Below, piece by piece: positions 77 to 18,580 of a stretch of 20,799 bases of DNA. Numbering within the stretch: the first letter of the stretch is position 1; every line of letters begins with the position of its first letter. Origin of the DNA: a virus; the IMG/VR virus record IMGVR_UViG_3300027963_000400, positions 1 to 20,799 of that record; one strand, written 5' to 3'. Below the pieces are notes generated by a model, which saw only the letters and a list, made by a program, of their open reading frames with translations, ran no database searches and had not been told where the DNA came from. The position numbers and the translations under genes were made by a program.

Positions 77-586
77 ATGGCAGATAATATTTTTTATGTT
101 TATCAATATATCAATGAAGATGGGCAACCTTACTATATTGGAAAAGGTTCGGGTAAACGTATTGATAGACCGCATACCAGCACATTATTGCCACCAAAAG
201 AACGACGTGTTATTATAAAAGACGGATTATCAAACGAAGAAGCAAAACAACTTGAAGGCAATCTCATTACCAAATATAAGAGAAAACTTGATGGTGGCAT
301 TCTAGATAATATCAAAATAAATCAATGGGCTTGTGCAGTAGGGTGGAAACATTCTGAAGAAGCCAAAAGAAAAATTAGTGAGGGCAATCGTGGAAAGAAA
401 CGCACTCCTGAACAATGTAAAAACTATAAAGGCACAGTGACCGCTGAACATCGAGAAAAAGTTAGACAGGCTAATTTAGGACGTCCGTACGATCCAGTAC
501 GATCAGCAAAAATATCGGCTACTTTAAAACGTTATTTTGCAGAACGCAAAGAAAGTAAATTAATGCAGGAACAAAAGAATGGCTGA
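77..586 (+). CDS. GIY-YIG homing endonuclease with NUMOD3 motifs
   Basis: This 169-residue protein is probably a free-standing site-specific DNA endonuclease that spreads its own gene between related phages. The N-terminus has a degenerate GIY-YIG core: YVYQY at residues 7-11, YYIGKG at 19-24, Arg28 as candidate catalytic Arg, and the helix LEGNLITKY at 59-67 with Glu60 as candidate catalytic Glu. The C-terminus has two NUMOD3-type DNA-binding motifs, near 93-108 (HSEEAKRKISEGNRGKK) and 121-136 (TAEHREKVRQANLGRP). It sits immediately before the portal gene and overlaps it by 8 bases, so its last codons supply the portal ribosome-binding site (AGGA 567-570). It is more AT-rich than the head genes, which fits horizontal transfer. 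Family assignment is secure; activity and target are not known. Confidence 0.88.
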   Translation: MADNIFYVYQYINEDGQPYYIGKGSGKRIDRPHTSTLLPPKERRVIIKDGLSNEEAKQLEGNLITKYKRKLDGGILDNIKINQWACAVGWKHSEEAKRKISEGNRGKKRTPEQCKNYKGTVTAEHREKVRQANLGRPYDPVRSAKISATLKRYFAERKESKLMQEQKNG

Positions 587-2372
587 AAACGAAAAAACTA
601 AAGGGTCGTGGCGAAAGTATTTCAAGGTTGCAGACAACTCTGGAACAATGAGTCCTATATCAGGCTCAAATCAATTTGGTTTACCAAACTATCCTCGGAA
701 TGACGGCAACGGATCAGCGTCTGCTCAGGCAGACTTTGTGTTTCGCAACTATGCAAGCCGACTACCAGAAGTATACTCAGGCCACCCCAATCGTGTGGAA
801 CGCTACAACCAGTATGAAAACATGGACATGGATTCTGAAGTCAATGCCTGTTTGGACATCATTGCTGAGTTCTCCACACAACTGAGTGAAACCAACGGCA
901 CACCGTTTGACGTAAAATACAACGACAAGCCCACTGATCATGAGATTGAAATTATCAAGAAGCAGATGCAACAGTGGGTCAAACTGAACAAACTAGACCA
1001 GCGTATCTTTAAACTGTTCCGCAACACCATCAAGTATGGGGATCAAGTGTTTGTGCGTGATCCAGAAACATTTGAAATGTACTGGGTTGACATGAGCAAG
1101 ATCATGCGTATCATTGTGAACGAATCAGAAGGCAAGCGCCCGGAACAATACGTTATTCGTGACATCAACCCCAACTTTCAAAACATGACTGTGGCAGCCA
1201 AGACCACCACAGACTACATGACCAATCCTGTGACAGGTACCATATCAGGCAGTTCAAACTACACCATGCCCAACGGCGGTGCTGGGGGCGGCGTGGGCAA
1301 CAGCAGATTCATGCAGGCTATGAACGAAGCCACAATTGATGCCAAGCACGTGGTGCATTGCAGCCTGAACGAAGGACTGGATGTGTTTTGGCCGTTTGGC
1401 CGCAGTATACTGGAACAGATTTACAAGGTTTACAAACAGAAAGAACTCTTAGAAGATGCTATTCTTATCTATCGTGTGAGCCGTGCGCCTGAGCGCAGAG
1501 TGTTCAAAATTGACGTGGGCAACATGCCCAGTCACCTGGCCATGCAGTTTGTGGAACGTGTGAAAAACGAAATGCATCAACGCCGAATCCCTACCATGAC
1601 AGGTGGTGGACAAAACATGATGGATTCCAGTTATAATCCGCTGTCAATCAACGAAGATTACTTCTTTCCCCAGGGACAAGACGGACGTGGCTCGTCAGTA
1701 GATGTACTGCAAGGCGGTGCAAATCTAGGCGAAATTGACGATTTAAAATACTTCAACAACAAGATGGCACGTGGTTTACGTGTGCCATCAAGTTACTTGC
1801 CCACTGGACCTGACGACTCAGACCGTGCTTTGAGCGACGGAAAAGTTGGCACAGCCTTGATACAAGAGTATAGATTCAACCAGTATTGTGAACGTTTACA
1901 GGCCTTGATTGCTCAGAAACTAGACGACGAATTCAAGATGTTCTTGAAGTGGCGCGGGTTTAACATAGACTCGGGCCTGTTTAGCCTGGGCTTTAATGCA
2001 CCTCAAAACTTTGCCAGTTACCGTCAAAGTGAACTGGATAACACACGTATACAGGCGTTTATGCAGTTGGAACCACTGCCCTACATGTCAAAACGCTTCT
2101 TGCTCGAACGATTCTTGGGCCTGACCGAAGGCGAAATCAAAGAAAACGAAGACATGTGGCGTGAAGAACGTGAAGATCCTGAACTTAAAGTTGCCGGCAG
2201 CGATCTACGTGCTGTGGGTATCAGTCCAGGCGCCATGCAAACAGACATTGAAACTGGCGAAGAAATTGCTCAAATGGAGCCAGCAGGTGTGGGCACACCT
2301 GAAGTTGGGTCTGCACCAGCAGGTCCTGTGGTACCCGGAGGCGTGGGTGGCGCAGGCGCCCCGGCAGCATAA
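579..2372 (+). CDS. gp20: Portal vertex protein of the head (gp20-like)
   Basis: This 597-residue protein matches the T4 gp20 family, whose dodecamer forms the portal through which DNA is packaged and on which the prohead core starts. Recognisable family segments are the N-terminal NACLDIIAEFST region (residues ~89-100), RVSRAPERRVFKIDVGNMP in the middle, and the region with LGEIDDLKYF, SSYLPTG and DDSDRALSDGK. It is longer than T4 gp20 (about 524 residues). The extra length includes a Gly/Asn-rich insertion near residues 215-245 and a Gly/Ala/Pro-rich tail over the last ~45 residues, both probably flexible. The start at 579 has AGGA 8 bases upstream, inside the end of the GIY-YIG gene. The following gp67-like, gp21, gp22 and gp23 genes confirm the identity. 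Confidence 0.96.
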   Translation: MAENEKTKGSWRKYFKVADNSGTMSPISGSNQFGLPNYPRNDGNGSASAQADFVFRNYASRLPEVYSGHPNRVERYNQYENMDMDSEVNACLDIIAEFSTQLSETNGTPFDVKYNDKPTDHEIEIIKKQMQQWVKLNKLDQRIFKLFRNTIKYGDQVFVRDPETFEMYWVDMSKIMRIIVNESEGKRPEQYVIRDINPNFQNMTVAAKTTTDYMTNPVTGTISGSSNYTMPNGGAGGGVGNSRFMQAMNEATIDAKHVVHCSLNEGLDVFWPFGRSILEQIYKVYKQKELLEDAILIYRVSRAPERRVFKIDVGNMPSHLAMQFVERVKNEMHQRRIPTMTGGGQNMMDSSYNPLSINEDYFFPQGQDGRGSSVDVLQGGANLGEIDDLKYFNNKMARGLRVPSSYLPTGPDDSDRALSDGKVGTALIQEYRFNQYCERLQALIAQKLDDEFKMFLKWRGFNIDSGLFSLGFNAPQNFASYRQSELDNTRIQAFMQLEPLPYMSKRFLLERFLGLTEGEIKENEDMWREEREDPELKVAGSDLRAVGISPGAMQTDIETGEEIAQMEPAGVGTPEVGSAPAGPVVPGGVGGAGAPAA

Positions 2373-3524: not shown

Positions 3525-4160
3525 ATGAAAACACTAAGAGAACAACTTACCTTTAATCAGGCCAACATCCAGGTTCTAGAAGAATCTGGACCGGATGGTC
3601 ACGGTAAAAATCTCTATTTAAAAGGCATCTGTATTGAAGGCAACAAGCGCAATGCAAATGACCGCGTCTACCCCATGCATGAAATCAGCAAAGCAGTAAA
3701 CACAATTAATGAGCAAATCAAAAGTGGTAACTCAGTGTTAGGTGAAGTGGATCATCCGGATGATTTGAAAATTAATCTAGACCGTGTGTGTCACAGCGTT
3801 GAAGGTATGTGGATGGAAGGCGATACCGGATGTGGAAAGTTAAAGATTTTACCAACCCCAATGGGCGAGTTGATCAAGACACTGTTAACATCAGGTATAA
3901 AACTTGGAGTTTCAAGTCGTGGCAGCGGCAACGTTGACGACAGAACAGGACATGTAAGTGACTTCGAAATAGTCACTATAGATGTAGTTGCTCAACCCAG
4001 CGCACCCAATGCATACCCTAAAGCAATATATGAAAGTCTCATGAACATGAAGTACGGACATAGACTGTTAGAGGTAGCCAAGGAAGCAGGCGAAAACAAC
4101 AAAGTGCAGAAGTATCTCAAGAATGAAGTTGTAAAACTCATCAGAGAACTCAAGATCTAA
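3525..4160 (+). CDS. gp21: Prohead core scaffolding protease (gp21-like, peptidase family S80/U9)
   Basis: This 211-residue protein is the T4-type maturation protease that cleaves core proteins and gp23, normally after Glu in (Leu/Ile)-x-Glu sites. Family landmarks are KRNANDRVYP (residues 41-50), LGEVDHPDD (72-80) with candidate catalytic His77, and GVSSRGSG (128-135) with candidate nucleophile Ser130 or Ser131. The segment VSDFEIVTIDVVAQPSAPNA (144-163) is typical of herpes-like/HK97-like prohead proteases. The length is close to T4 gp21 (about 212). The ATG is only 3 bases after the gp67-like stop with no clear Shine-Dalgarno, suggesting translational coupling. It is followed at once by its substrates gp22 and gp23. 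Confidence 0.95.
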   Translation: MKTLREQLTFNQANIQVLEESGPDGHGKNLYLKGICIEGNKRNANDRVYPMHEISKAVNTINEQIKSGNSVLGEVDHPDDLKINLDRVCHSVEGMWMEGDTGCGKLKILPTPMGELIKTLLTSGIKLGVSSRGSGNVDDRTGHVSDFEIVTIDVVAQPSAPNAYPKAIYESLMNMKYGHRLLEVAKEAGENNKVQKYLKNEVVKLIRELKI

Positions 4161-4173
4161 GGAGAATCTACTA

Positions 4174-5262
4174 ATGTTAGATGCAATCAAACCATTGCTA
4201 GATAGCGACCTGATCACCGAGGAAACTCGTACAGAGATCACAGAAGCTTGGGAAGCCAAGTTAAGTGAGGCTCGTGAACAGGCTCGTGCAGAACTACGTG
4301 AAGAGTTCGCACAACGCTATGAGCATGACAAGACAGTGATGGTAGAGGCTTTGGATAAAATGGTAACAGAAGGTTTGGCCTCAGAAATTGCCCAGGTAGC
4401 CGCTGAAAAGCGCAACTTGAGTGAAGACCGTGTCCGTTTCCAACACAAGATCAAAGAGTCAGCACAGAAGTTTAACGGCTTCTTGGTGACCAAACTTGCA
4501 GAAGAAATTGGCGAATTGCGCAAAGACCGTCGGATGCACACAGAAGGACTAGCAAAACTAGAAAACTTCATGGTGCATGCATTGGCTCGTGAAATTCAAG
4601 AGTTTGCCGCAGACAAACGTGACGTAGTGGAAACAAAAGTCCGCTTGGTCCGTGAAGCTCGTGCAAAACTTGAAACACTCAAAACACGTTTCGTAAAAGA
4701 AAGTGCAGAGAAAATGAGTCAGGCTGTTAGCCGTCATCTAAAGACAGAACTTTCACAATTGCAAGAAGACATCCGAATTGCTCGCGAGAACAATTTTGGT
4801 CGTCGTATCTTTGAAGCATACGCAAGTGAATTTGGTGCTACTCACCTAAATGAGAAAGCAGAAGTTCGCAAGTTGTATAGTGCATTGTCACGCCGTGACA
4901 AGCAATTGGCGGAAGCCATCCGACTCGCACAACGAGCCAAAGTCGTTGTGGAGTCAAAAGAACGTGAAATACGTATAATCAAAGAATCCAATGAGCGCGA
5001 AAGCACCATGGAAATGTTGCTTGCACCTCTTAATAAAGAGAAGCAAGATGTTATGCGTAATTTGCTTGAAAGCGTACAGACAACCCGTTTGAAAAACGCA
5101 TTCGAAAAGTATCTGCCAGCAGTATTGGAAGACCGCTCTGTAAAAGCCTCAAAAGTGATTACAGAAAACGTTTCAGTAGCAACTGGGGATAAATCTGTTC
5201 CAAGTGGTCAGCAGGAAGATCGCAGTAATGTGATCGACTTAAAGCGCCTGGCAGGGTTATAA
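4174..5262 (+). CDS. gp22: Prohead core scaffold protein (gp22-like)
   Basis: This 362-residue protein is the major internal scaffold around which gp23 assembles; it is later destroyed by the gp21 protease. The sequence is almost entirely charged, Ala/Glu/Lys/Arg-rich and predicted helical or coiled-coil from about residue 15 to 320, with no globular domain. It starts LDAIKPLLDSDLITEETR and ends IDLKRLAGL, both features I associate with gp22 of T4-like phages. T4 gp22 is about 269 residues, so this is a long version. Shine-Dalgarno AAGGAG (4159-4164) is 9 bases before the ATG. The position between protease and capsid genes is the conserved T4 order. Confidence 0.93.
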   Translation: MLDAIKPLLDSDLITEETRTEITEAWEAKLSEAREQARAELREEFAQRYEHDKTVMVEALDKMVTEGLASEIAQVAAEKRNLSEDRVRFQHKIKESAQKFNGFLVTKLAEEIGELRKDRRMHTEGLAKLENFMVHALAREIQEFAADKRDVVETKVRLVREARAKLETLKTRFVKESAEKMSQAVSRHLKTELSQLQEDIRIARENNFGRRIFEAYASEFGATHLNEKAEVRKLYSALSRRDKQLAEAIRLAQRAKVVVESKEREIRIIKESNERESTMEMLLAPLNKEKQDVMRNLLESVQTTRLKNAFEKYLPAVLEDRSVKASKVITENVSVATGDKSVPSGQQEDRSNVIDLKRLAGL

Positions 5263-5263
5263 T

Positions 5264-5269
5264 TAAATA
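5264..5269 (+). promoter_or_regulatory. TAAATA sequence and Shine-Dalgarno before gp23
   Basis: TAAATA (5264-5269) overlaps AAGGAG (5269-5274), which lies 6 bases before the gp23 ATG. The ribosome-binding site is clear. The promoter reading is doubtful: RNA starting about 6 bases after the box would begin after the Shine-Dalgarno and lose it. The box may be chance, or gp23 may be read mainly from upstream transcripts. Confidence 0.3.
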
Positions 5270-5280
5270 AGGAGACTTAA

Positions 5281-6477
5281 ATGTCACAAGAACTATTAGA
5301 AAGCCGCTGGGGCGAGACCAAAGAAGCATTGCTCGAAGGTTTAAACGGCTCAAAGCGCAACAGCATGGGCGTTATCCTTGAGAATACACGCAAGTATTTG
5401 AAAGAAAACGCAAGTGCTGGTTCCACAGCATCTGGCAACATCGCCACACTTAACCGTGTGATTCTGCCAGTTATCCGTCGTGTTATGCCAACCGTTATTG
5501 CTAACGAATTGGTAGGCGTTCAGCCAATGACTGGTCCAGTTGGTCAAATCCACACTTTGCGTGTTCGTTACGCACAGTCATTGACTGACACATCAGCAGC
5601 CGCCACAAGCGTGTCAGCTGGTCAAGAAGCATTGTCACCATTCACGATTGCTCAGGCATATTCAACTGTGCCACAAGGTACAAGTACAGCCACAAACTAT
5701 ACTGGTAACAACACAGCCACCATGGAAGGTACAGGCGGTAAGCAAATTTCTGTGCAAATCTTGAAACAAGCCGTTGAAGCTCGCACACGTAAGTTGCAAG
5801 CACGTTGGACTTTTGAATCTGCACAAGATGCACAAGCCATGCACGGTATTGACGTTGAAGCAGAAATTATGGCTGCTTTGGCTCAAGAAATTACTGCTGA
5901 AATCGACCAAGAGATTCTCTTGAGCCTGCGTTCATTGGCAGCAACTGAGTTCACATACAACCAAGCAACTGTTTCAGGTACTGCTACATTCGTTGGTGAC
6001 GAACACGCCGCATTGGCTGTTTTGATCAACCGTGTTGCTAACTTGATCGCCCAACGCACACGTCGTGGCGCAGGTAACTATGCTGTTGTCTCTTCAGCTG
6101 CCTTGACAGTGTTGCAATCTGCTACAACTAGCGCATTTGCACGTACCACAGAAGGCACATTCGAAGCACCTACAAACACCAAGTTTGTTGGTACATTGAA
6201 CGGCGCCATGCGTGTGTTCGTTGACTCTTATGCAGCTGATACAACACCAGTGTTGGTCGGTTACAAAGGTTCTTCAGAAGCAGACGCTCCAGCATTCTAC
6301 TGCCCATACATTCCTTTGATGTCTTCAGGCGTTGTGTTGGATCCAAGCACATTCGAACCAGTCGTGTCATTCATGACACGTTACGGTTACATCGAATTGA
6401 CAAACACTGCATCTTCATTCGGCAATGCCGGAGATTATGTGGGAGAGATAGCCGTTTCGAACCTATCGTTCAGTTAA
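5281..6477 (+). CDS. gp23: Major capsid protein (gp23-like)
   Basis: This 398-residue HK97-fold protein builds the head shell. Matches to T4 gp23 include IGPAVMG/MVRRAIPNLIA-like ILPVIRRVMPTVIANELVGV (residues 61-80), QPMTGPVGQ (81-89), VEARTRKLQARW (165-176), AQDAQAMHGIDVEAE, RRGAGNYAVVS and VGYKG. YLKE at 39-42 aligns with the T4 maturation site FLTE, so gp21 probably cleaves after Glu42. It is much shorter than T4 gp23 (521). The segment between RVRYAQS (~94-100) and VEARTRK is about 65 residues against about 130 in T4, so most of the insertion domain is missing, and the C-terminus is also shorter. The Shine-Dalgarno is strong, and a terminator follows at 6504. Confidence 0.97.
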   Translation: MSQELLESRWGETKEALLEGLNGSKRNSMGVILENTRKYLKENASAGSTASGNIATLNRVILPVIRRVMPTVIANELVGVQPMTGPVGQIHTLRVRYAQSLTDTSAAATSVSAGQEALSPFTIAQAYSTVPQGTSTATNYTGNNTATMEGTGGKQISVQILKQAVEARTRKLQARWTFESAQDAQAMHGIDVEAEIMAALAQEITAEIDQEILLSLRSLAATEFTYNQATVSGTATFVGDEHAALAVLINRVANLIAQRTRRGAGNYAVVSSAALTVLQSATTSAFARTTEGTFEAPTNTKFVGTLNGAMRVFVDSYAADTTPVLVGYKGSSEADAPAFYCPYIPLMSSGVVLDPSTFEPVVSFMTRYGYIELTNTASSFGNAGDYVGEIAVSNLSFS

Positions 6478-6503
6478 GAACTATTCTTATCTACACGATA
6501 TAC

Positions 6504-6529
6504 AAAAACGCCCTTCGGGGCGTTTTTTT
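6504..6529 (+). terminator. Strong intrinsic terminator after gp23
   Basis: ACGCCC-TTCG-GGGCGT forms a G+C-rich stem capped by a UUCG tetraloop. An A-run on the 5' side (6504-6508) pairs with a 7-base T-run (6523-6529). It lies 27 bases after the gp23 stop and would end the head transcript. Confidence 0.95.
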
Positions 6530-6565
6530 ATTGACTACATATTTACGTAAAAGTAAAGTTAGAGA

Positions 6566-6571
6566 TAAATA
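6566..6571 (+). promoter_or_regulatory. Late-promoter-like TAAATA box before the HNH gene, inside a hairpin arm
   Basis: GATAAATAAC ends 5 bases before the ATG at 6577, so T4-like spacing puts the RNA start on the A of the ATG. The box overlaps the 5' arm of an inverted repeat: 6568-6578 pairs with 6599-6609, 10 of 11 bases, loop 20. The stem overlaps the start codon. RNA reading through from gp23 could fold and hide the start; RNA starting at the late promoter would lack most of the 5' arm. Confidence 0.5.
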
Positions 6572-6576
6572 ACAGT

Positions 6577-7338
6577 ATGAATAAATATACTATTTGGTAT
6601 ACTGCTATTACAGATCGTGCTAGAACACGTAAACTTAATGGATATACTGAACGCCATCATATTATACCTAAGAGCCTAAACGGCACAGATGACAAAAACA
6701 ATCTTGTAGATCTTACAGCAAGAGAACATTTTATATGTCACTGGTTGTTAACTAAGATGCATACTGGTGAAGCAAAGGCAAAGATGATTTATGCATTAAA
6801 TGGAATGAAACGAAACGGTAAATGCACTCAACGGTATGAAACAAAGATTACAGCAAGAGTTTACGAGAATCTTAAAAAGGAATTCTCAGTGGTGCATAGT
6901 GCAACAATGTCTGGCCGCCAGGCTAATAACAAAGGCAGGCCCATGAGTGAAGCACAAAAAATTAAAATTCGAGAAACTAAAGCATCTAATCCGTTTAAGC
7001 CAACAGATGAATGGAAGGCGGCACTAGCGGCAAGGAGAACTGGACAAACTCATAGTGAAGAAACAAAATTAAAAATGTCTCTATCTGCAAAAGGCAAACC
7101 CAAAGGACCAATGAGCGAAGAGGGAAAACGTATACGGTCAGACGCGGCAAAAGGTAAATCTAAACCAGAAGGCATGGGTGCAAAGTTATCAGCAACAGTA
7201 GCGGCACAAAAAGCCGCTGGAACTCATTATACTCAACAGCCTAAACAGATCTGTCCACATTGTGGAATCCAGGCTAGCAAGGCAAGATACAACGGCTTTC
7301 ACGGTGACAAATGCAAACTCAAACTAAATACTCTGTAA
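6577..7338 (+). CDS. HNH homing endonuclease with NUMOD3 motifs and C-terminal zinc finger
   Basis: This 253-residue protein is probably a free-standing homing endonuclease. Residues 23-58 (YTERHHIIPKSL, then NNLVDLTAREHFICHWLL) form a typical HNH beta-beta-alpha metal site with candidate residues His27/His28, Asn41/42, His51 and His55. Short basic NUMOD3-like DNA-binding motifs follow near 116-138 and 154-198. The C-terminus has ICPHCG with Cys226, Cys229, His242 and Cys246, a zinc-finger tail common in phage homing enzymes. It lies directly after the gp23 terminator, has its own late-type promoter and no Shine-Dalgarno, and is AT-rich, all consistent with an inserted cassette. The target is probably in or near gp23 of related phages (inference). 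Confidence 0.9.
   Translation: MNKYTIWYTAITDRARTRKLNGYTERHHIIPKSLNGTDDKNNLVDLTAREHFICHWLLTKMHTGEAKAKMIYALNGMKRNGKCTQRYETKITARVYENLKKEFSVVHSATMSGRQANNKGRPMSEAQKIKIRETKASNPFKPTDEWKAALAARRTGQTHSEETKLKMSLSAKGKPKGPMSEEGKRIRSDAAKGKSKPEGMGAKLSATVAAQKAAGTHYTQQPKQICPHCGIQASKARYNGFHGDKCKLKLNTL
7325..7330 (+). promoter_or_regulatory. TAAATACT box at the 3' end of the HNH gene
   Basis: CTAAATACT (7324-7332) is the same 9-mer found before the virion gene at 9505-9513. It lies within the last codons of the HNH gene. A transcript starting near 7336 would meet the terminator at 7371 before the next start codon, so it is either inactive, attenuated, or a chance match. Confidence 0.25.
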
Positions 7339-7370
7339 GAAAAAAATTCACCGTGAGATGGGAAGGCAAG

Positions 7371-7393
7371 AAACCTGCGTCAGCAGGTTTTTT
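7371..7393 (+). terminator. Intrinsic terminator after the HNH gene
   Basis: AAACCTGC (7371-7378) and GCAGGTTT (7383-7390) form a perfect 8-bp stem with loop GTCA and a T-run through 7393. It lies 33 bases after the HNH stop. It also argues against starting the next gene at 7311, because that start would translate the hairpin (KKPASAGFL is a typical terminator read-through peptide). Confidence 0.85.
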
Positions 7394-7409
7394 GTTGGCT
7401 ATATACTCA

Positions 7410-8348
7410 ATGATATATCATTTAAACCCTGAACGTTTTTATACCAATCGAACTTATCTTACACAATGGTTGTTAGAAGATACATTAGTAATAACAGACA
7501 ACGATTTTGAAAACTGTGACGAAACATTAAACTTGCTATCTACTCACCCTTTGAAAAATCAAGTTGTAGATATAACGCATAATCCTTATCCAGATAATAA
7601 AATACCAACCAACATAGACCCAATATTGACTAACAATTTTGAATTTTGGTTACAACCTAAACCGGGTGTATATTTTTTCCCAATATTTTTATGGATGTTC
7701 AGCTTGAGAGCAAATCTTTGGTGGCCTAGATTTGTTATGGATGCCGGCTCAAATAAAACACAAAAAGTTATGTGCCTAAACAATAACACTCGACCTCATC
7801 GAACATATTTGTTTGAAGAATTTCAACGTAAAAATATATTAGATCAAATGATGTATACGTTTGCTAACTATCGTGTGTTACCGGGAGAAAGTCTAGAGAA
7901 TAGACAAATGAATGATGGATTTTATGGCCTTGGCCATGCAGTTTACAATCAGTATGCAGTGAATCTTGTAACTGAAACAGTAATAGACCAATCATGGATA
8001 AGCGAAAAAACTTGCAAACCATTTATGGCTAGACAAATTCCAATTATTGCCTGTGGCCCAGGAGTTAATAAATTTTTACAGGATATAGGACTAGATATGT
8101 TTAGAGATATTGTGCCCTGGGAGTCGTGGGATAATGAAACTAACTCTACTGTCAGACTTCAAAAAATTGCTGATTTTACGGAGCAATGGGTTCTCAGTGG
8201 AACTATATTAGATGATTATTATCGAGTGTTAGATCGAGTGGAACATAACAAACAATATTTTCATAGCGAAAAATTTAGAAACAAAATTATGATTCAAATG
8301 GATCAATTTAAACCTTATACCATGACAAGTATTGAGCAATCTTTTTAG
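7410..8348 (+). CDS. Glycosyltransferase-like protein of a phage family
   Basis: This 312-residue protein probably transfers a sugar from a nucleotide-sugar. It has the layout of phage glycosyltransferase-like proteins: KVMCLNNNTRPHRTYLFEEF (119-138), then AVNLVTET (183-190) and the motif ISEKTCKPFMARQIPIIACGP (197-217). That motif resembles the donor-binding segment of GT10 fucosyltransferase-type enzymes. No membrane segment is evident. I chose ATG 7410 over an in-frame ATG at 7311 because the longer form overlaps the HNH gene and crosses a terminator. TATATACT lies just before 7410 and could be a degenerate late box; no Shine-Dalgarno is seen. The gene is clearly AT-richer than the head genes. 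Its end overlaps the convergent - strand gene by 41 bases. The substrate is unknown. Confidence 0.72.
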   Translation: MIYHLNPERFYTNRTYLTQWLLEDTLVITDNDFENCDETLNLLSTHPLKNQVVDITHNPYPDNKIPTNIDPILTNNFEFWLQPKPGVYFFPIFLWMFSLRANLWWPRFVMDAGSNKTQKVMCLNNNTRPHRTYLFEEFQRKNILDQMMYTFANYRVLPGESLENRQMNDGFYGLGHAVYNQYAVNLVTETVIDQSWISEKTCKPFMARQIPIIACGPGVNKFLQDIGLDMFRDIVPWESWDNETNSTVRLQKIADFTEQWVLSGTILDDYYRVLDRVEHNKQYFHSEKFRNKIMIQMDQFKPYTMTSIEQSF

Positions 8349-9462
8349 TGACACTGGCCCAGTCACCGCGTGTGGGTTGTCTAAACAAAGTGGCAGTAGG
8401 ATACCAAGGACTATTGTTGCGATCCAACAACCAACGCCAGTCCTGTCCGTACTGATTCAACATCACCCAGGTGGGTCTACCTAGTGCGCCACTCAAATGA
8501 CTGATGGCAGTGTCAACAGATATCACCACATCCATGTGCATGATCAATGCGGCTGTGTCAGCAAAACTAACAATTGTTCCAGGATATCCAGTGACACCAA
8601 CTTGATTTAACTGTGCCTCTTCTTCGGGTGACACGTCAACTTGTAGATTGATCCATTCGTATTGAGGATTAGATTGAATCATTTCTAGTATCACCGGAAA
8701 CGGCACACTCTTGTGTTGATGTATCCAAGAATCTTTGCGCCCACTCCAACTCACACCCACCCGCATGCGTTTTTTAGGACCTAGTCTATCTTGCCATGCT
8801 TTTGTCAATGCCGGAGTAGCAGTAAGATAGTTTTGCATTCGTGGCAAGTTATCTAATGTGATGCCCAATATACCAGGAACACTCATGATAGGAACCCAGT
8901 AATCAAACTCGCCCATGTCTTCGTTGTATCTACCCACATGTTCTATAATGTTGCTCTGACTCAGCAACGGGATCAATCCGTCGGTGACTTGTAATTTGAT
9001 TCGAGCACCCATGGCATGCAAGTTAAAAATAAATCTTGAAAACTGAACACAGTCTCCGTGACCTTGCTCGCCCACCACAAGAATAGTTTTGTCTCGAATA
9101 TCTTCACCACGCCAGCGTGGCTGTGAGAATTTTGGTTCAGTACCTTGCAAGTGCTCAAATTGCCAACGAGTTTCGTATTGCGCCCACCCGCGTTGATAGT
9201 CACCCGTCAGCAGGTATGCCACTGCTAAATTAAACTGTGCAGTAATGTTAGAAGGATCCAATAGAATAGAATGTTGTAAAAATGGTATAGCACGTTTGGG
9301 ATAACCCAACTCACGCATGACGTTGCCATAGTTACAAAATGCCGCGGCATTATCGGGGTCGTCAACTAAAACCTGTGCATAACATTTTAGTGATTTTTCA
9401 GGTTCGTGATTGGCACGATGTTGATTGCCTTGTTCGATTAAATCTATTTGTTGTTGGTTCAT
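8308..9462 (-). CDS. TPR protein with a GT9/heptosyltransferase-like glycosyltransferase domain
   Basis: This 384-residue protein combines about three tetratricopeptide repeats (residues ~8-105, e.g. AAAFCNYGNVMRELGYPKRA and TAQFNLAVAYLLTGDYQRG) with a two-lobed glycosyltransferase-like region. Landmarks are ILVVGEQGHGDCVQFSRF (127-144), VGVSWSGRK (235-243) and DVVISVDTAISHLSGALG (311-328). The last is the donor-lobe motif seen in ADP-heptose LPS heptosyltransferase-like (GT9) domains of bacterial TPR proteins. TPRs usually bind proteins, so a protein substrate is possible. It is the only gene on the - strand here and converges on the previous gene with a 41-base overlap. A TAAATA box lies 5 bases before its ATG. 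It looks like an accessory (moron-type) gene, perhaps of bacterial origin. An alternative role is host surface modification. Confidence 0.82.
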   Translation of the reverse strand: MNQQQIDLIEQGNQHRANHEPEKSLKCYAQVLVDDPDNAAAFCNYGNVMRELGYPKRAIPFLQHSILLDPSNITAQFNLAVAYLLTGDYQRGWAQYETRWQFEHLQGTEPKFSQPRWRGEDIRDKTILVVGEQGHGDCVQFSRFIFNLHAMGARIKLQVTDGLIPLLSQSNIIEHVGRYNEDMGEFDYWVPIMSVPGILGITLDNLPRMQNYLTATPALTKAWQDRLGPKKRMRVGVSWSGRKDSWIHQHKSVPFPVILEMIQSNPQYEWINLQVDVSPEEEAQLNQVGVTGYPGTIVSFADTAALIMHMDVVISVDTAISHLSGALGRPTWVMLNQYGQDWRWLLDRNNSPWYPTATLFRQPTRGDWASVTKKIAQYLSWYKV

Positions 9463-9467
9463 AGGGA

Positions 9468-9473
9468 TATTTA
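9468..9473 (-). promoter_or_regulatory. Late-promoter-like TAAATA box for the TPR-glycosyltransferase gene
   Basis: On the - strand GCGTAAATATCC ends 5 bases before the ATG (9462-9460), the same spacing as at 2381 and 6577. This suggests a late, possibly leaderless transcript. With the + strand box at 9506 it makes a divergent promoter region of about 40 bases. Confidence 0.45.
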
Positions 9474-11086: not shown

Positions 11087-11126
11087 TGGGGTTTAGGTAA
11101 ATACCCCAGAGGATATGGTTTACCTA
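11087..11126 (+). promoter_or_regulatory. Late-promoter box embedded in inverted repeats before the giant fibre gene
   Basis: TAAATA at 11098-11103 is followed by GAGGAT (11109-11114, Shine-Dalgarno) and ATG 11126. TAGGTAAA (11094-11101) is a perfect inverted repeat of TTTACCTA (11119-11126), which reaches the start codon. A competing stem TGGGGT (11087-11092)/ACCCCA (11103-11108) is also possible. RNA starting near 11109 would lack the 5' arm and expose the ribosome-binding site; read-through RNA could hide it. Confidence 0.55.
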
Positions 11127-14100
11127 TGACACAACAGATAATAGATGTAGGGGCAAATGCCAACGATGGCACAGGTGAGCCCTTACGCGAAGCATTTACC
11201 GCAGTAAATGACAATTTTACGCAGATCTGGACTGCCGGTCCGGTTGGCAGTCAAGTAAAAATCTCTGGCAACATAGTTACTACCACAGTTACTAATCTAG
11301 GGCTAACTCTGGCCGGCAACGGTATTGGCAACATACAAGCCAATAGTACCATTGTTCCTGGCACATCAGGTGTTTACGATCTTGGCGCCCCGGACAGAAC
11401 ATTTCAATATATCTATGGTGATTACCTAGTTGGTAACGGTGCATTAATCACTGGAATTGTGGCTAATACCACGTATAACAATGCCAATGTAGCAGCCTTC
11501 TTGCCCACATATACTGGTAATCTTGTTAGCTTAACTGGCCCAGTTATAACCACAGCCAACGTTGTGGCTGGTAATGTCATTACCGGCGGCTTCTTGGGAG
11601 TGACTGGCAATATCACAAGTGTGGCCAACATTACCGGCAACAACTTAATCAGTTCAGGCCGCATTTCTGCTGTTGGCAACATAACCACCACCGCCAATGT
11701 TGCTGGTAATTATTTTATTGGCAATGGTGCTTTCTTAACAGGCATAACCGCAACCAATATTGCAGCCGCGGCGCTGACTGGAACCACACTCAGTTCCAAT
11801 GTATTATACTCAAGTCTGCAAGTTGTAGATGATCTACTGTATCTAGATGTGGTTGGTAATGTAACAACTCAGGGTAGATTTATTGGATCTGGTGCAGGGT
11901 TAACAAATATACCAGCAGCCAATGTTACTGGACAAGTTGCCAACGCCGCCATAGCAGGCACAGTGTATACCAATGCACAACCAAACATTACTTCAGTTGG
12001 TACACTGACTTCGTTGACTGCAACTGGTAATATCACTGGCAATTACTTTATTGGTAACGGTGCATTACTAACTGGTATATCAACTTCGGGTGTGAATGCC
12101 AATGCTTTGGTGGGAACCACACTCAGTTCAAATGTATTATACTCAAGTCTGCAAGTAGTAGATGATCTACTGTATTTGGATGTGGTTGGTAATGTAACTA
12201 CTCAAGGCAGATTTATCGGTTCGGGTGCCGGCTTAACCAACCTACTGGGTGCTAATATAGTAGGGTCGGTGGCCAATGCCACCTATGCTAACATAGCAGG
12301 TACAGCATATTCGGTCGCAGGAGCCAATGTCACAGGTACTGTGGCCAATGCTACCTACGCTACTATCGCTGGTAGTGCCACCAGTGCTAATACCGCCAAT
12401 ACTGCCACATATGCCAATACGGCAAATGCTGTGGCTGGTGCAAATGTATCTGGCACCGTGGCCAATGCCACTTATGCTACTACCGCTGGTAGTGCTACCA
12501 CAGCAACAACTGCCACTACCGCAGGTACAGTAACTACTGCCGCACAACCTAATATAACTTCAGTTGGTACCTTGACATCGGTTGCGGTGTCAGGCAATAC
12601 CACCGCAGGAAATATACTAACTGGCGGTAAAATCAGTGCCGTTGGAAACATAACTGGCAATTACTTTATTGGTAACGGCGCATTACTAACAGGGGTGTCT
12701 GCAACAAATGTCAATGCCAACGCATTGATTGGTGATGTACTAAGTTCTAATGTATTGTATTCAAGTTTAAAAGTTGTAGATGATTTATTATACTTAGACG
12801 TTGTTGGTAATATCACTACCACTGGGCGGTTTATTGGATCAGGTGCCGGTCTAACCAATATACCAGGCGGAAATATCACAGGCTCTGTGGCCAATGCCAC
12901 CTATGCCGTAACCGCTGGCACCGCAACCACAGCCACCTACGCTAATACAGCAAACACCGTAGCAGGTGCCAATGTCACGGGTACCGTGGCCAATGCTACC
13001 TACGCTGTTACCGCTGGATCGGCAACCACAGCAGGCACAGTGACCACGGCGGCACAACCCAACATTACCTCAGTTGGCACCTTAACTTCAGTTACTGTCA
13101 CTGGCAATGCCACCGGTGGCAACTTATTAACTGCTGGAGTGGTGAGTGCTACTGGCAACATTACAACCACAAATTACTTTATTGGTAATGGTCGTCAACT
13201 GACTGGAATACAAGCAAGCGAAGTTGGCGTACTGGCAAATCTAAGCGTGACTGGTAATACTCAAACTGGGAATTTACTCACTGGTGGTACAATAAGTGCA
13301 GTTGGTAACATTAGGACCACTGGCAATGTCACAGGCAATTACTTCATTGGTAACGGCTCGCAACTGACAGGTATTATAGCAAGTGCTGGCGCCGCAATCA
13401 CAAACGGCAACAGCAACGTCACAGTCAATGCAAACGGTAATGTCACAGTTGGTGTAACTGGAACTAGTAATGTTGCGGTTTTTGCCCCTACTGGTGCCTA
13501 CATTACTGGACAAGTAAGTGCCACTGGCAACATTGCCGGCAACTATTTGCTGGGCAATGGTGCTCTAATTACTGGCTTACCAGCAGGATACTCAAATACC
13601 GATGTGGCCAATTACTTGCCAACATATTCTGGCAACCTGGTCAGCTTAACTGGCCCTGTAACAACAACTTCGAATGTAACTGGTGGCAATGTTATAACAG
13701 GCGGATTGATAAGTGCTGTAGGCAATGTAAGTGGTAACTATATTCTCGGTAATGGTGCGCTGTTGACCGGCGTTATCACAAGCGTTGCCAATATTAATAA
13801 TGGCACAAGTAATGTTACCGTTGTGAGTTCGGGTGGCAACATCACTGTTGGAGTCGGAGGAACAGCAAATGTTGCTGTGTTTGCCACAACTGGAGAATAC
13901 ATCACTGGCGTATTGAGTGCAAGTGGCAATGTTACCGGCGGCAACGTTTTAACTGCTGGTCTTATATCAGCCACATCGACTATTACCAGTGCTGCCAACA
14001 TAATTGGTGGTAATGTATTAACTGGTGGGCTAATATCAGCAATAGGCAACATCCAAGGCAATGTGTTCATTGGCAATGGTGCTGGGTTAACAAGTTTAAC

Positions 14101-17100
14101 TGGTGCCAACGTAACAGGCACCGTGGCCAATGCTACCTATGCTGATTCAGCAGGAACAGTAACAAACAATGCACAAGCCAATATTACAAGTGTTGGCATA
14201 TTAACAAGTTTAAGTGTTAGCGGCAATACCACAACTGGTAATTTACTTAGCGGTGGCCTAATCAGTGCTACTTCAACCATTACTTCGGCAGCCAATATTA
14301 CTGGTGGCAACTTAATTACCGCCGGACTAATCACAGCAACTGGCAATGCAACTGTTGGTAATTTACAAACCGCAGGTTTAATCACAGCAACTGGTAATAT
14401 TATCAGCGGCAACTTACTAACTGGTGGATTAATCAGTGCTACATCAACAATCACCAGTGCGGCAAATATTACTGGTGGCAATGTCCTAACAGGTGGATTG
14501 ATATCTGCAACCGGTACTATCACTAGTGCCGCTAACATAACTGGTGGCAATGTCCTAACAGGTGGATTGATTTCGGCAACTGGCAATATCACTGGCGGCA
14601 ATATTAACACCAATAGTATAGTTGGCGTCTCATTGACAATTGCTACCAATGGTGATTTGACGTTAAACTCCGTTGGAAATATTCTGGTCAGCAATAAAAT
14701 TATTAGAAATCTTGCTGACCCGGTGCAAGACCAAGATGCCGCAACCAAAGCCTATGTTGACAATGTGGCGCAAGGACTTGATCCCAAAGCATCCGTTTCT
14801 TTGGCCACAGCCACCACACTACCTGCTTATACCTACAACAACGGAACTGCCGGAGTTGGTGCAACCATAACTGGATCTGCCTCAGGCTTATTAACTATTG
14901 ATGGAACCTCACCCACAGTTGGTGATCGAGTGTTGATCAAGAATGAAACTGGTGGTAATGCTCCATACAACGGTATCTATACAGTCACCGCCAACGATGC
15001 AGGATCCTCATACGTATTGACTCGTTCTGCCGACATGAATCAGGCTGCCGAAGTACCTGGAGCATTTGTTTTTGTTGAGTTGGGCTCAGTCAATGCCGAT
15101 TCTGGATATGTGTGTACTACAAATGCGCCGGTGGTAATTGGCACAACCGCTATTGTTTGGACACAATTCTCCAGTGCCGGCAGTTATACTGCCAACAACA
15201 GTGCTGGCCTAAGCCTTGTGGGATCGCAATTCAATGCCTTGGTGGACAACAACACCACAGCGTTTGATGGATCAGGCAATATTATTGTCAAGGCCAGTGC
15301 CAATCTCACAACGCCAAATATTGGCGCGGCAACTGGTACAAGTGTAAGTTTAACTGCTAATGTAACCGGTGGAAATTTGCTGACAGGTGGTGTTATCAGT
15401 GCCACAGCCAACATAACCGGTGGCAACATATTAACAGCCGGAATAGTTTCAGCAACTGGTAATATTTCTGGTAATTATTTCCTTGGCAATGGTTCTGCTC
15501 TAACTGGTGTTATTGCCGCCGGTGGTCAAGGTAACACAATAACACTGGGTACACCAACAGATGGTAATCTTGTACAAAACGTGGCCTACCCAGGTTGGAC
15601 CACAGCAACTTTTGTCACAGATGGCCTAGATGACTTGAATCAAGTGGCACTGAACATAGCCAACAGTACCTATGTGGGCAACGCTTATATCACTGCCAAC
15701 GTGAGTTCAGGACCAAGTCCATTGAGTGTGGCACTAACAGGCCGTTACGTCGGTAACCCCAACGCTTACTTGTGGCAATTTGGTGATGGTACTGCCAATG
15801 CAACCACAGCCAACGCTGTACACACATTCAGCAATGTATCTGGTGGTACATTCACAGTGACCTACACCGCATACAACACCAATGGAACCTACAATGGAAA
15901 TGTGGCCAATGGAGCCAAAGGATCAACCAGCACAGCGTCTACCACAATAACATTGTATACGCCTACTCCAATACCATCGTTCACTGCCAACCGAACAACG
16001 TTGGACACCCCTGGCGGTGTGCTGATAACCAACAGCAGTTTGTACGCAGAAACTTACTCAATCAACTGGGGTGATGGCACCATTGTGATTCCAGCCAACA
16101 ACTGGACCACAGCAAGTCATACATTTACCAATGCTACGGCCAACACTGATGTGTTGTACGGAGTTAACCTAACAGGTAACAGTGCCAATGCAGGTGCCAC
16201 TCCGGTGAGTGTGACATCATCCAACACCAATGTCAAAGTTTACTCATCACAGGCCAGCAATGTGTTTGTCACTGCCAACCGAGCCAATGTGATCAATGGA
16301 TCAGGTGTGATAAGTTTTAGAAACGATTCAAACGGTGCGCCAGGTAACACAGCAAGTTTTGGTGCACAACAGTATTATTATCTAAACTACGGTGACGGCA
16401 ATGTCAGCAACGTGGTTGTTGCATCTGGTACTGCTGGCAACCCTGGCGCTGCCAACGTTACCAATACCTTTGCGTTGAGTGCGGCCAATCAATCAGGCAA
16501 CATCTATCAACAGTTCACTGCAAACTTGTCCTTGTACACCGGTTATAGTACCAGCCCATTCAAGAGTGGCAACATCACAATCACAATTGAACCACAGACT
16601 CGTGCCAACTTTGTTGGAACCACTGCCAACGTCACTACCAATGCCACTGCCAATACAGGCAACGCTAGAGTTGGCTATCTCTACACTGACTACAACGGTG
16701 CCAATCGGTCTACTTTTACATTCCAGAACACCAGCGAGAACAGCAATATTGCCAACTGGACCTGGGGCGACGCCACATTCAGCAACGGCGTAAGCAACGT
16801 GGGCAACACACTGCACACCTATACCGGTACTGGCGCCTTTACTGTGTCACTACAGGCCAACGGAACACCCAATGGCATAACCAGTACAGCACAGAGTAAT
16901 ACTTTGAGTACTACAGGTTATATCTTTATTGCCGCTAACCCTACTGCACCCACTGCACTGAGCGGCTTTGCCAATTTGACCATTGCCAATGCCAGCCAGG
17001 GCACAAGTCCATTGTTGGCAGCCGGTGCCGCTGACGCATCAGGTGGAAACATTCCGGCCAACGGCACAAGTGTCACACGTTTTGCAACAACAGCAACTAT

Positions 17101-18580
17101 CACAACCAGTGCCAACGTACAAAATGCCAACACAGCGGTAACAGGAACACTGACTGCGTATGTAAATAATACGGCCGCTGGCAATGTGTCATTTAGCAAT
17201 GTAAGTAACACTGTTGGAACATCGGGCGCTTTGGTTGTGTCGGCCGACCAAGACTTGCACGTGGCCAATGCCGCAGTACCCAGTTACTTCTACAAAGTGT
17301 TCAGCGCCAACGTAAGTTGTACATTGAGCAGTTTGAGCACAGGCTATAACAATTACAAAATGGTACACTCAGTATCAGGCAACACCAACTATGTGGGCTT
17401 TGTCAAAGACAATTTGAACACAGCACCCAGCCTAGTTACTAGTAACGTGTTGATGGTCGAGTCCACAGCAGGAACCTACAGATACATTTCAGGAATTCCT
17501 TACTACAACACAGGCTCACCTGCAATCACAATTGCCAATCTAGAGGTCAGCAATCTAGCAGGTCAAACTTATACCAGTGCTACGCCTTTTACATTGGCCA
17601 GTGGTACGGTATACGAAGGTTCGGGTGCAGTGTTATCGGCAACTCAGACCAAGACTCTGGCACAACTTGACAATGCAGGCAACAGTATGTTGACCGGTAG
17701 CAACGTCAAGGCCAACATTGGCGTCAGTGCAAACTACACTTTTGGTAATTTGACCGGCAACATTACCGGTGCAAACAACAGCGTGAGCACCTTGCAGGCC
17801 AACGTACTCAACGTGATTGGAACTGGTACCACCGTACAATTGCCAACCAAGATACAGATGTATGCTGGCGCAAACTCTGGGGTGAACGAGCAGTCAATCA
17901 CTTGCACACCTACTGCCAACACACAAGCGGCCATACGTATTGTGATGAGCACAGCAGGCAACACTCCAGTGTTTTCTGACTCAACTAATTATTACACAGC
18001 CAACGCTTGGTCTGGAGCACAAACCATTGCCGGCACACCAGAGGCTGTGGTGCGGTATGGTGTACTCACGCAATATGCTGTTGACTTGAGCACAGGATAC
18101 TTGCCAGTAGGACCAAACTTGTCAATCACTGGCGGCCGTACAAGCACACAGTATTTTACTTTTGCATTTGCAAGACCAAGCCTGGCCAACTTTGACATTA
18201 GATTGACCACAACCACAGGTGTTGCAGGAGTTTGGGTAGCGGCACCGGGCACAACAATAGACAAGAGTGGATTCTCATCGCCCACTCCGGGATTCCCAGG
18301 ACCTACCAGTACCATCAACGGATGGCTGGAAACATACACACAGTATGCTGGATCAGGAGTTCCGGGTGCTGCCAGTGGTACTGGTGGCAATGGCTCAAAC
18401 GGTTGTGCCTTGACCGGCGCGGATGTGATACCGTTAAATACAGCAATTGCCAACGTAGGATACACAATGACTCTGGGATCTCAAAATGCCGCTAACAGTA
18501 CTGGCAACAACATTTTAATTAGAATTGCATTGGCAAGTGGCCAATCTATCACAGCCTTGTCAATAGGAGTAGCCGCTTAA
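11126..18580 (+). CDS. Giant repetitive tail-fibre/adhesin protein with PKD-like domains
   Basis: This 2484-residue protein is probably a virion fibre that contacts the host. Residues 5-35 (IIDVGANANDGTGEPLREAF, then NDNFTQIW) are the N-terminal module common to fibre proteins of T4-like aquatic phages. Residues ~100-1195 are repeats built from GNYFIGNGALLTGI, VVDDLLYLDVVGN, AAQPNITSVGTLTS and TGGNVLTGGLISATG blocks. Around 1200-1410 is a fibre domain starting AATKAYVDNVAQGLDPKAS, with VGDRVLIKNETG. Residues ~1523-1950 hold about four PKD-like beta domains marked by FGDG (~1551), WGDG (~1647), YGDG (~1754) and WGDA (~1879). The last ~530 residues are Ser/Thr/Asn/Gly-rich and unrecognised. There is no signal peptide, as expected for a virion protein. 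Its stop overlaps the next start by one base. Confidence 0.85.
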   Translation: MTQQIIDVGANANDGTGEPLREAFTAVNDNFTQIWTAGPVGSQVKISGNIVTTTVTNLGLTLAGNGIGNIQANSTIVPGTSGVYDLGAPDRTFQYIYGDYLVGNGALITGIVANTTYNNANVAAFLPTYTGNLVSLTGPVITTANVVAGNVITGGFLGVTGNITSVANITGNNLISSGRISAVGNITTTANVAGNYFIGNGAFLTGITATNIAAAALTGTTLSSNVLYSSLQVVDDLLYLDVVGNVTTQGRFIGSGAGLTNIPAANVTGQVANAAIAGTVYTNAQPNITSVGTLTSLTATGNITGNYFIGNGALLTGISTSGVNANALVGTTLSSNVLYSSLQVVDDLLYLDVVGNVTTQGRFIGSGAGLTNLLGANIVGSVANATYANIAGTAYSVAGANVTGTVANATYATIAGSATSANTANTATYANTANAVAGANVSGTVANATYATTAGSATTATTATTAGTVTTAAQPNITSVGTLTSVAVSGNTTAGNILTGGKISAVGNITGNYFIGNGALLTGVSATNVNANALIGDVLSSNVLYSSLKVVDDLLYLDVVGNITTTGRFIGSGAGLTNIPGGNITGSVANATYAVTAGTATTATYANTANTVAGANVTGTVANATYAVTAGSATTAGTVTTAAQPNITSVGTLTSVTVTGNATGGNLLTAGVVSATGNITTTNYFIGNGRQLTGIQASEVGVLANLSVTGNTQTGNLLTGGTISAVGNIRTTGNVTGNYFIGNGSQLTGIIASAGAAITNGNSNVTVNANGNVTVGVTGTSNVAVFAPTGAYITGQVSATGNIAGNYLLGNGALITGLPAGYSNTDVANYLPTYSGNLVSLTGPVTTTSNVTGGNVITGGLISAVGNVSGNYILGNGALLTGVITSVANINNGTSNVTVVSSGGNITVGVGGTANVAVFATTGEYITGVLSASGNVTGGNVLTAGLISATSTITSAANIIGGNVLTGGLISAIGNIQGNVFIGNGAGLTSLTGANVTGTVANATYADSAGTVTNNAQANITSVGILTSLSVSGNTTTGNLLSGGLISATSTITSAANITGGNLITAGLITATGNATVGNLQTAGLITATGNIISGNLLTGGLISATSTITSAANITGGNVLTGGLISATGTITSAANITGGNVLTGGLISATGNITGGNINTNSIVGVSLTIATNGDLTLNSVGNILVSNKIIRNLADPVQDQDAATKAYVDNVAQGLDPKASVSLATATTLPAYTYNNGTAGVGATITGSASGLLTIDGTSPTVGDRVLIKNETGGNAPYNGIYTVTANDAGSSYVLTRSADMNQAAEVPGAFVFVELGSVNADSGYVCTTNAPVVIGTTAIVWTQFSSAGSYTANNSAGLSLVGSQFNALVDNNTTAFDGSGNIIVKASANLTTPNIGAATGTSVSLTANVTGGNLLTGGVISATANITGGNILTAGIVSATGNISGNYFLGNGSALTGVIAAGGQGNTITLGTPTDGNLVQNVAYPGWTTATFVTDGLDDLNQVALNIANSTYVGNAYITANVSSGPSPLSVALTGRYVGNPNAYLWQFGDGTANATTANAVHTFSNVSGGTFTVTYTAYNTNGTYNGNVANGAKGSTSTASTTITLYTPTPIPSFTANRTTLDTPGGVLITNSSLYAETYSINWGDGTIVIPANNWTTASHTFTNATANTDVLYGVNLTGNSANAGATPVSVTSSNTNVKVYSSQASNVFVTANRANVINGSGVISFRNDSNGAPGNTASFGAQQYYYLNYGDGNVSNVVVASGTAGNPGAANVTNTFALSAANQSGNIYQQFTANLSLYTGYSTSPFKSGNITITIEPQTRANFVGTTANVTTNATANTGNARVGYLYTDYNGANRSTFTFQNTSENSNIANWTWGDATFSNGVSNVGNTLHTYTGTGAFTVSLQANGTPNGITSTAQSNTLSTTGYIFIAANPTAPTALSGFANLTIANASQGTSPLLAAGAADASGGNIPANGTSVTRFATTATITTSANVQNANTAVTGTLTAYVNNTAAGNVSFSNVSNTVGTSGALVVSADQDLHVANAAVPSYFYKVFSANVSCTLSSLSTGYNNYKMVHSVSGNTNYVGFVKDNLNTAPSLVTSNVLMVESTAGTYRYISGIPYYNTGSPAITIANLEVSNLAGQTYTSATPFTLASGTVYEGSGAVLSATQTKTLAQLDNAGNSMLTGSNVKANIGVSANYTFGNLTGNITGANNSVSTLQANVLNVIGTGTTVQLPTKIQMYAGANSGVNEQSITCTPTANTQAAIRIVMSTAGNTPVFSDSTNYYTANAWSGAQTIAGTPEAVVRYGVLTQYAVDLSTGYLPVGPNLSITGGRTSTQYFTFAFARPSLANFDIRLTTTTGVAGVWVAAPGTTIDKSGFSSPTPGFPGPTSTINGWLETYTQYAGSGVPGAASGTGGNGSNGCALTGADVIPLNTAIANVGYTMTLGSQNAANSTGNNILIRIALASGQSITALSIGVAA
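11781..12858 (+). repeat. Three copies of a ~127-bp module in the giant fibre gene
   Basis: Copies lie at about 11781-11907, 12114-12240 (333 bases on) and 12732-12858 (618 bases on). Copies 1 and 2 are nearly identical in DNA; copy 3 is diverged but encodes the same peptide (LSSNVLYSSL, VVDDLLYLDVVGN, GRFIGSGAGLTN). All offsets are multiples of three, so the frame is kept. Confidence 0.85.
14230..14620 (+). repeat. In-frame tandem repeat block (69-bp unit) in the giant fibre gene
   Basis: The peptide pattern TGGNVLTGGLISATGTITSAANI recurs here. The clearest pair shares 32 identical bases at 14471-14502 and 14540-14571, exactly 69 bases apart (23 codons). Neighbouring units are shortened or diverged. 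Confidence 0.85.

Follow-up and report, generated by a model that had tools for sequence, protein, structure and literature searches.

How does a homing endonuclease gene inserted among the head genes of a T4-like phage come to be expressed, and is its start tied to the late phase of infection? The locus that raises this question is found in the IMG/VR virus record IMGVR_UViG_3300027963_000400, and the window analyzed here is the whole stretch of 20,799 nt, in which head genes of a T4-like phage are found (Table 1). Behind gp23 lies an open reading frame (ORF) in which the Pfam NUMOD3 model passes its cutoff (2.3e-6) and the HNH model falls narrowly under it (3.6e-4; 21.1 versus 21.4 bits). 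The motif HHIIP...NLV.LT.REHF..H can be read in the sequence, and the homologues of the 253-amino-acid protein include MobD-like and homing endonucleases. The first-pass annotation had placed this gene under late-only control, exerted by a T4-type late promoter and a hairpin over the start codon. The late box and an expected start at or near 6577 held up, while a hairpin switch of the gene e or I-TevI type did not. Judging from the sequence, the element is probably a late promoter of the T4 type that runs directly into a leaderless start codon, carried on an HNH/NUMOD3 cassette behind gp23.

A cassette between gp23 and its native terminator

The sister L262, with a gp23 protein 99% identical to that of the window, has no HNH gene, and the corresponding segment measures 23 bp there versus 885 bp in the window. 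By blastn, positions 5201 to 6471 align with L262 at 93.6% identity, and positions 7357 to 7401 align at 95.6% with the DNA directly after L262 gp23. The native gp23 terminator sequence is therefore now found behind the HNH gene, with the cassette sitting between gp23 and that terminator, which indicates that the cassette brought its own terminator and late promoter and, putatively, a leaderless start. The locus thus combines insertion relative to an endonuclease-free allele (L262) with HNH and NUMOD3 motifs, as expected of a homing endonuclease. T4 mobA-E and MobD-like genes belong to the same HNH/NUMOD3 family and are likewise intergenic insertions adjoining an essential gene. Most T4 mob genes have been described as lacking a promoter and depending on transcription from farther upstream (PMC2988022), in accordance with which two of the three enterobacterial HNH homologues inspected overlap the preceding gene, whereas the HNH family of the window seems to carry a leaderless late promoter of its own. 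Hairpins equivalent to the terminator brought by the cassette follow gp23 in nearly all relatives, and the one in the window should limit read-through into the HNH gene.

Table 1. Coordinates of the features of the window discussed in the text
Feature	Position	Strand	Basis or remark
gp20 portal	579-2372		Portal_T4, 8e-101
Prohead protease	3525-4160		
gp23	5281-6477		1.5e-96
Inserted segment (gp23 end, new terminator, late box, HNH ORF)	6472-7356	+	Missing from sister L262
gp23 intrinsic terminator, AACGCCC-TTCG-GGGCGTT + T tract	6504-6529	+	Direct reading; long stem in 6480-6660 fold
Upstream element, family form GTGAAAGTTAAATT, moderately conserved	6544-6560	+	Fixed distance from box; information profile, 43 de-duplicated relatives
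T4-type late promoter box GATAAATA	6564-6571	+	7/8 match to consensus TATAAATA
Inverted repeat of the first-pass annotation	6568-6609	+	Real, not conserved
5-nt spacer ACAGT	6572-6576	+	Length conserved, letters variable
Start codon ATG and putative +1 (A6577)	6577-6579	+	Box-to-start distance, conserved spacing
HNH/NUMOD3 free-standing homing endonuclease, 253 aa	6577-7338	+	Pfam NUMOD3 and HNH, homologues

The slot after the gp23 terminator is also a hotspot for other cassettes, which were found in L185, L194, L202, L208, L212, L216, L219, L228, L235 and L237. Several of them are GIY-YIG-like (MKPYTYLIKH...), and each has its own TAAATA-N5-ATG start (GTG in L185). For the gene downstream from the HNH cassette, the probable start is the ATG at 7410 rather than 7311, with a degenerate box, TATATA, at spacing 4 ahead of it (7400-7412); HNH-free relatives have TAAGTA or TAAATA at a similar spacing before the corresponding gene. 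Farther downstream, a 2,484-amino-acid ORF (11126-18580) with many near-repeats (ATGNITGGN...) has a box with a 22-nt spacer ahead of it and is followed by a related ORF (18580-20490), both of which are likely to encode repetitive virion fiber or appendage proteins.

Geometry of the late box and the start codon

The first-pass annotation had reported a TAAATA box at 6566 to 6571, and direct reading confirms it, with the ATG at 6577. T4 late promoters have an 8-bp box where a -10 element would be, roughly one helical turn before the start site (PMC2988020), and TAAATA is the late box reported for cyanophages and T4 (PMC2984593); the boxes of T4 and KVP40 (TATAAATA) and of cyanophages (NATAAATA) are the same as the one found here and go with a gp55-like sigma factor (PMC2988020, PMC2984593). 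In the window, the core of the box occupies -11 to -6 relative to the ATG and the full 8-bp box -13 to -6, so that it ends 6 nt before the ATG, at the position of the sigma -10 element of T4 late promoters (PMC2988020). GATAAATA is thus a TATAAATA-like box about one helical turn before the putative +1. Given this geometry and the N5 spacer, the +1 would fall on the A of the ATG and the late mRNA is expected to be leaderless, a probable consequence that the first-pass annotation had missed. Its proposal that late RNA lacks the 5' arm of the repeat agrees with the position of the box, although the start itself is an expectation, at or beside 6577.

The distance between box and ATG is under selection, as would be expected of a leaderless gene. 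Among 59 distinct upstream regions of the HNH family, 51 have exactly TAAATA-N5-ATG, with TAAATA invariant (L038 was counted here after its start had been reset to the ATG behind the box). Seven others combine TAAATA with a spacer of 17 to 21 nt and a strong Shine-Dalgarno sequence (SD), one has spacing 3, and none has a spacing of 6 to 16. The anti-SD energy at the HNH start of the window is -2.9, with no SD at a usable distance; values are mostly above -3 in the leaderless relatives versus -4.3 to -9.2 in the SD-led ones. An AT-rich box before the ATG might conceivably have a translational role. However, a division into two discrete classes, one with the ATG at the putative +1 and the other with an SD leader before the ATG, agrees with a promoter and not with an unspecified translation signal.

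All three TAAATA-N5-ATG sites of the window (2381, 6577 and 9462 on the minus strand) open an ORF, which is far from chance. The first corresponds to a small ORF after gp20 (box-start fusion at 2370-2383), kept in G001 and G002, and the third to a 384-amino-acid ORF on the minus strand (9460-9473). A further box-start fusion, with spacing 7 (64-79), precedes a GIY-YIG-like ORF at 77. A second TAAATA inside the HNH ORF (6582-6587) is lost in relatives and was discarded.

The element upstream from the box, GTGAAAGTTAAATT, was considered as a general part of leaderless promoters and rejected, being absent from the other TAAATA-N4/5-ATG genes of the same phages. Similar elements were found in this HNH family only, making it a candidate operator for autorepression by the endonuclease, or else part of the mobile cassette. 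Autorepression via an operator has reportedly been found for I-TevI.

The inverted repeat over the start codon

The first-pass annotation had also described an inverted repeat, 6568-6578 with 6599-6609, that pairs 10 of 11 bases and overlaps the ATG, and this repeat does exist. It is only mildly unusual: when the 71-nt stretch was dinucleotide-shuffled 1,000 times, 23 of the shuffles held an equally good repeat, as did 9 of 593 stretches taken from the window. If it worked as a late-only switch of the T4 gene e, I-TevI and Aeh1 mobE type, pairing of the two arms would hide the start in read-through RNA, and late RNA would be free of the 5' arm. Such switches are documented for gene e (PMC3014915) and for I-TevI, segB and Aeh1 mobE (PMC2988022). 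The geometry is correct, with the box (6566-6571) lying at the 5' arm, and the predicted probability that the AUG bases of the window are unpaired is 0.01 to 0.14 in read-through RNA versus 0.93 to 0.96 in RNA from 6577, a large change that made the hairpin idea reasonable a priori. The claim that the AUG is hidden in read-through RNA and free in late RNA can therefore be kept as a prediction for the window sequence, but not as an evolved switch. To begin with, the folding energy of 6550 to 6620 was unremarkable compared to shuffles (z = -0.71).

The constant spacing allows a columnwise comparison of the arms among relatives (80 in the sample, pair counts over 19). The 3' arm, lying in the coding sequence, follows changes in the protein, while the 5' arm varies independently; in L002, with a protein 85% identical, the 3' arm is kept and the 5' arm is altered (AATAAATGTAT). 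Paired cells amounted to 66.3%, versus 64.6% in shuffles, and no excess of compensatory changes in the stem over shuffles was found among the 19 relatives. There are also relatives that lack the repeat and show no compensating changes, an outcome that the first-pass annotation had itself named as speaking against a switch. When upstream and coding halves were swapped between relatives, the AUG was as much unpaired with foreign as with own upstream regions (0.322 versus 0.308; P = 0.28), the mean of the relatives being 0.84 in late RNA versus 0.31 in read-through RNA. Foreign upstream halves hide the AUG equally well, which suggests that the hiding is generic: any upstream RNA tends to pair with the AT-rich start, and a 5'-terminal AUG is free. 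The window, furthermore, offers no SD for sequestering, the stem is not maintained in relatives, and the terminator should already restrict read-through. Pair counts, own and foreign swaps and shuffles rule out the hairpin as a conserved switch; it appears to be due to chance, and we consider late-only control by this hairpin improbable.

T4 gene e, I-TevI, segB and Aeh1 mobE (PMC3014915, PMC2988022) resemble the HNH gene in having a late promoter at the start region and late RNA without the upstream sequence of the early read-through transcript, and several of them are homing endonucleases, as here. However, their leaders contain an SD, which is sequestered by the hairpin, whereas the HNH gene of the window has no SD and presumably no leader, a start codon at the putative +1 and a hairpin that is not conserved.

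The spacing-5 signal across phage genomes

TAAATA-N5-ORF starts were counted over whole contigs in seven freshwater records, window included, and in reference phages, with expected values obtained from permuted hexamers. They exceeded expectation in G012 (18 versus 1.9; P = 2e-12), G002 (13 versus 1.0), G006 (13 versus 1.1), G004 (12 versus 1.5), G008 (11 versus 0.9) and the window (3 versus 0.08), as well as in the cultured SAR11 phage HTVC008M (12 versus 0.9); the excess was weaker in Melnitz and Mosig (6 versus 1.1 in the latter). In the full spacing test, no excess was present in S-SKS1 (no sites), S-PM2 (one) or T4 (3 versus 1.1 expected, two of the three falling inside mobB and nrdG), and pattern counts showed no enrichment at this distance in KVP40, Aeh1, P-SSM2, phiM12, Phosso, Cr30 and DLP_6. 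These phages rule out a universal T4-like property. When every hexamer was scored without bias at each of 40 offsets upstream from ORFs, TAAATA with the 5-nt spacing ranked first in the freshwater group (58 versus 8.6 expected), ahead of every SD hexamer, and second in the pelagimyophages (17 versus 1.2), while in T4 TAAATA peaked at spacing 28. Spacings 4 and 7 were enriched too, so the +1 could shift by one or two bases, giving leaders of 1 to 3 nt.

In HTVC008M, all 12 spacing-5 sites with an ORF of at least 50 amino acids are GenBank CDS starts. The genes include gp2-, gp4-, gp48-, gp25- and gp3-type genes and the tape measure, with products such as the DNA end protector, head closure, tail tube cap, baseplate wedge and tail completion proteins. 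Most cases there are virion and metabolic genes, and leaderless starts specific to homing endonucleases were thus discarded. Anti-SD pairing averaged -1.2 kcal/mol in genes with spacing 4 to 5 (n = 102) versus -4.8 in those with spacing 17 to 25 (n = 158). A gp55-like sigma was found in 8 of 8 genomes tested, including five long relatives and HTVC008M (the record of the window is a fragment), although the freshwater contigs gave weak matches (E values of 1e-5 to 1e-8), which fall in longer ORFs of about 300 amino acids. T4, S-PM2 and S-SKS1 have the box 17 to 30 nt before the ATG, with an SD leader, whereas here there is a large second class with the ATG at the putative +1.

Alternatively, the box might be a host sigma70 -10-like element or an AU-rich ribosome standby site, and the gene would then be leaderless or SD-less but not late. 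TAAATA does look like -10 elements, the sites are AT-rich, and TTGACT lies upstream at 6532 to 6537. Nevertheless, the invariant core is the late box of cyanophages and T4 (PMC2984593), in the same genomes this box is also found ahead of SD leaders, at spacing 17 to 25, and many of the box genes of HTVC008M are virion genes. TTGAC is part of the terminator tail that is found also after gp23 in HNH-less relatives, and it is missing in many HNH relatives. A sigma70 promoter with this nonconserved -35 part was rejected, and the alternative as a whole seems unlikely.

In the favored model, in which late promoter and leaderless start are joined, a gp55-type late sigma would read GATAAATA and RNA would begin on A6577, the promoter setting the late timing. 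The late HNH mRNA would have no 5' leader, and its 5'-terminal AUG would be translated without an SD. In RNA reading through from gp23, which the terminator should already curb, the AUG would probably be poorly used because of its internal position, the lack of an SD and its tendency to pair, a general consequence of the lost 5' end rather than of a designed hairpin. This promoter-start unit would move with the HNH homing cassette, and the same layout would serve many late genes in these phages.

In the textbook picture of T4 late transcription, the late mRNAs have leaders with an SD. Leaderless phage mRNAs are known from lambda cI, P2 V and Thermus phage P23-45, with a 5'-terminal AUG and no SD, as proposed here, but these belong to other promoters and phage groups and to no T4-type gp55 late regulon. 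It is likely that some phages of the T4 superfamily, namely the pelagimyophages of SAR11 and a large group from freshwater, use a leaderless late program, in which the gp55-type +1 coincides with the start codon of many late genes, both virion and homing genes, beside a class with SD leaders. The fused promoter and start may act as a late-only translation switch, since the same AUG would be internal and SD-less in read-through RNA. No earlier report joining leaderless mRNA with T4-type late promoters turned up in a search of mainly open-access literature, and the leaderless late layout is, within that literature, an apparently undescribed, lineage-wide feature. The question also arises of whether leaderless translation is favored during late infection by these phages. 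Should late mRNAs begin on the AUG in many T4-like phages that infect abundant aquatic bacteria, gene callers that rely on SDs may misplace starts in such genomes. The strength of the late promoter, the choice of start site and translation would then form one unit, and some 15 bp would be enough for a mobile gene to import all it needs for late expression.
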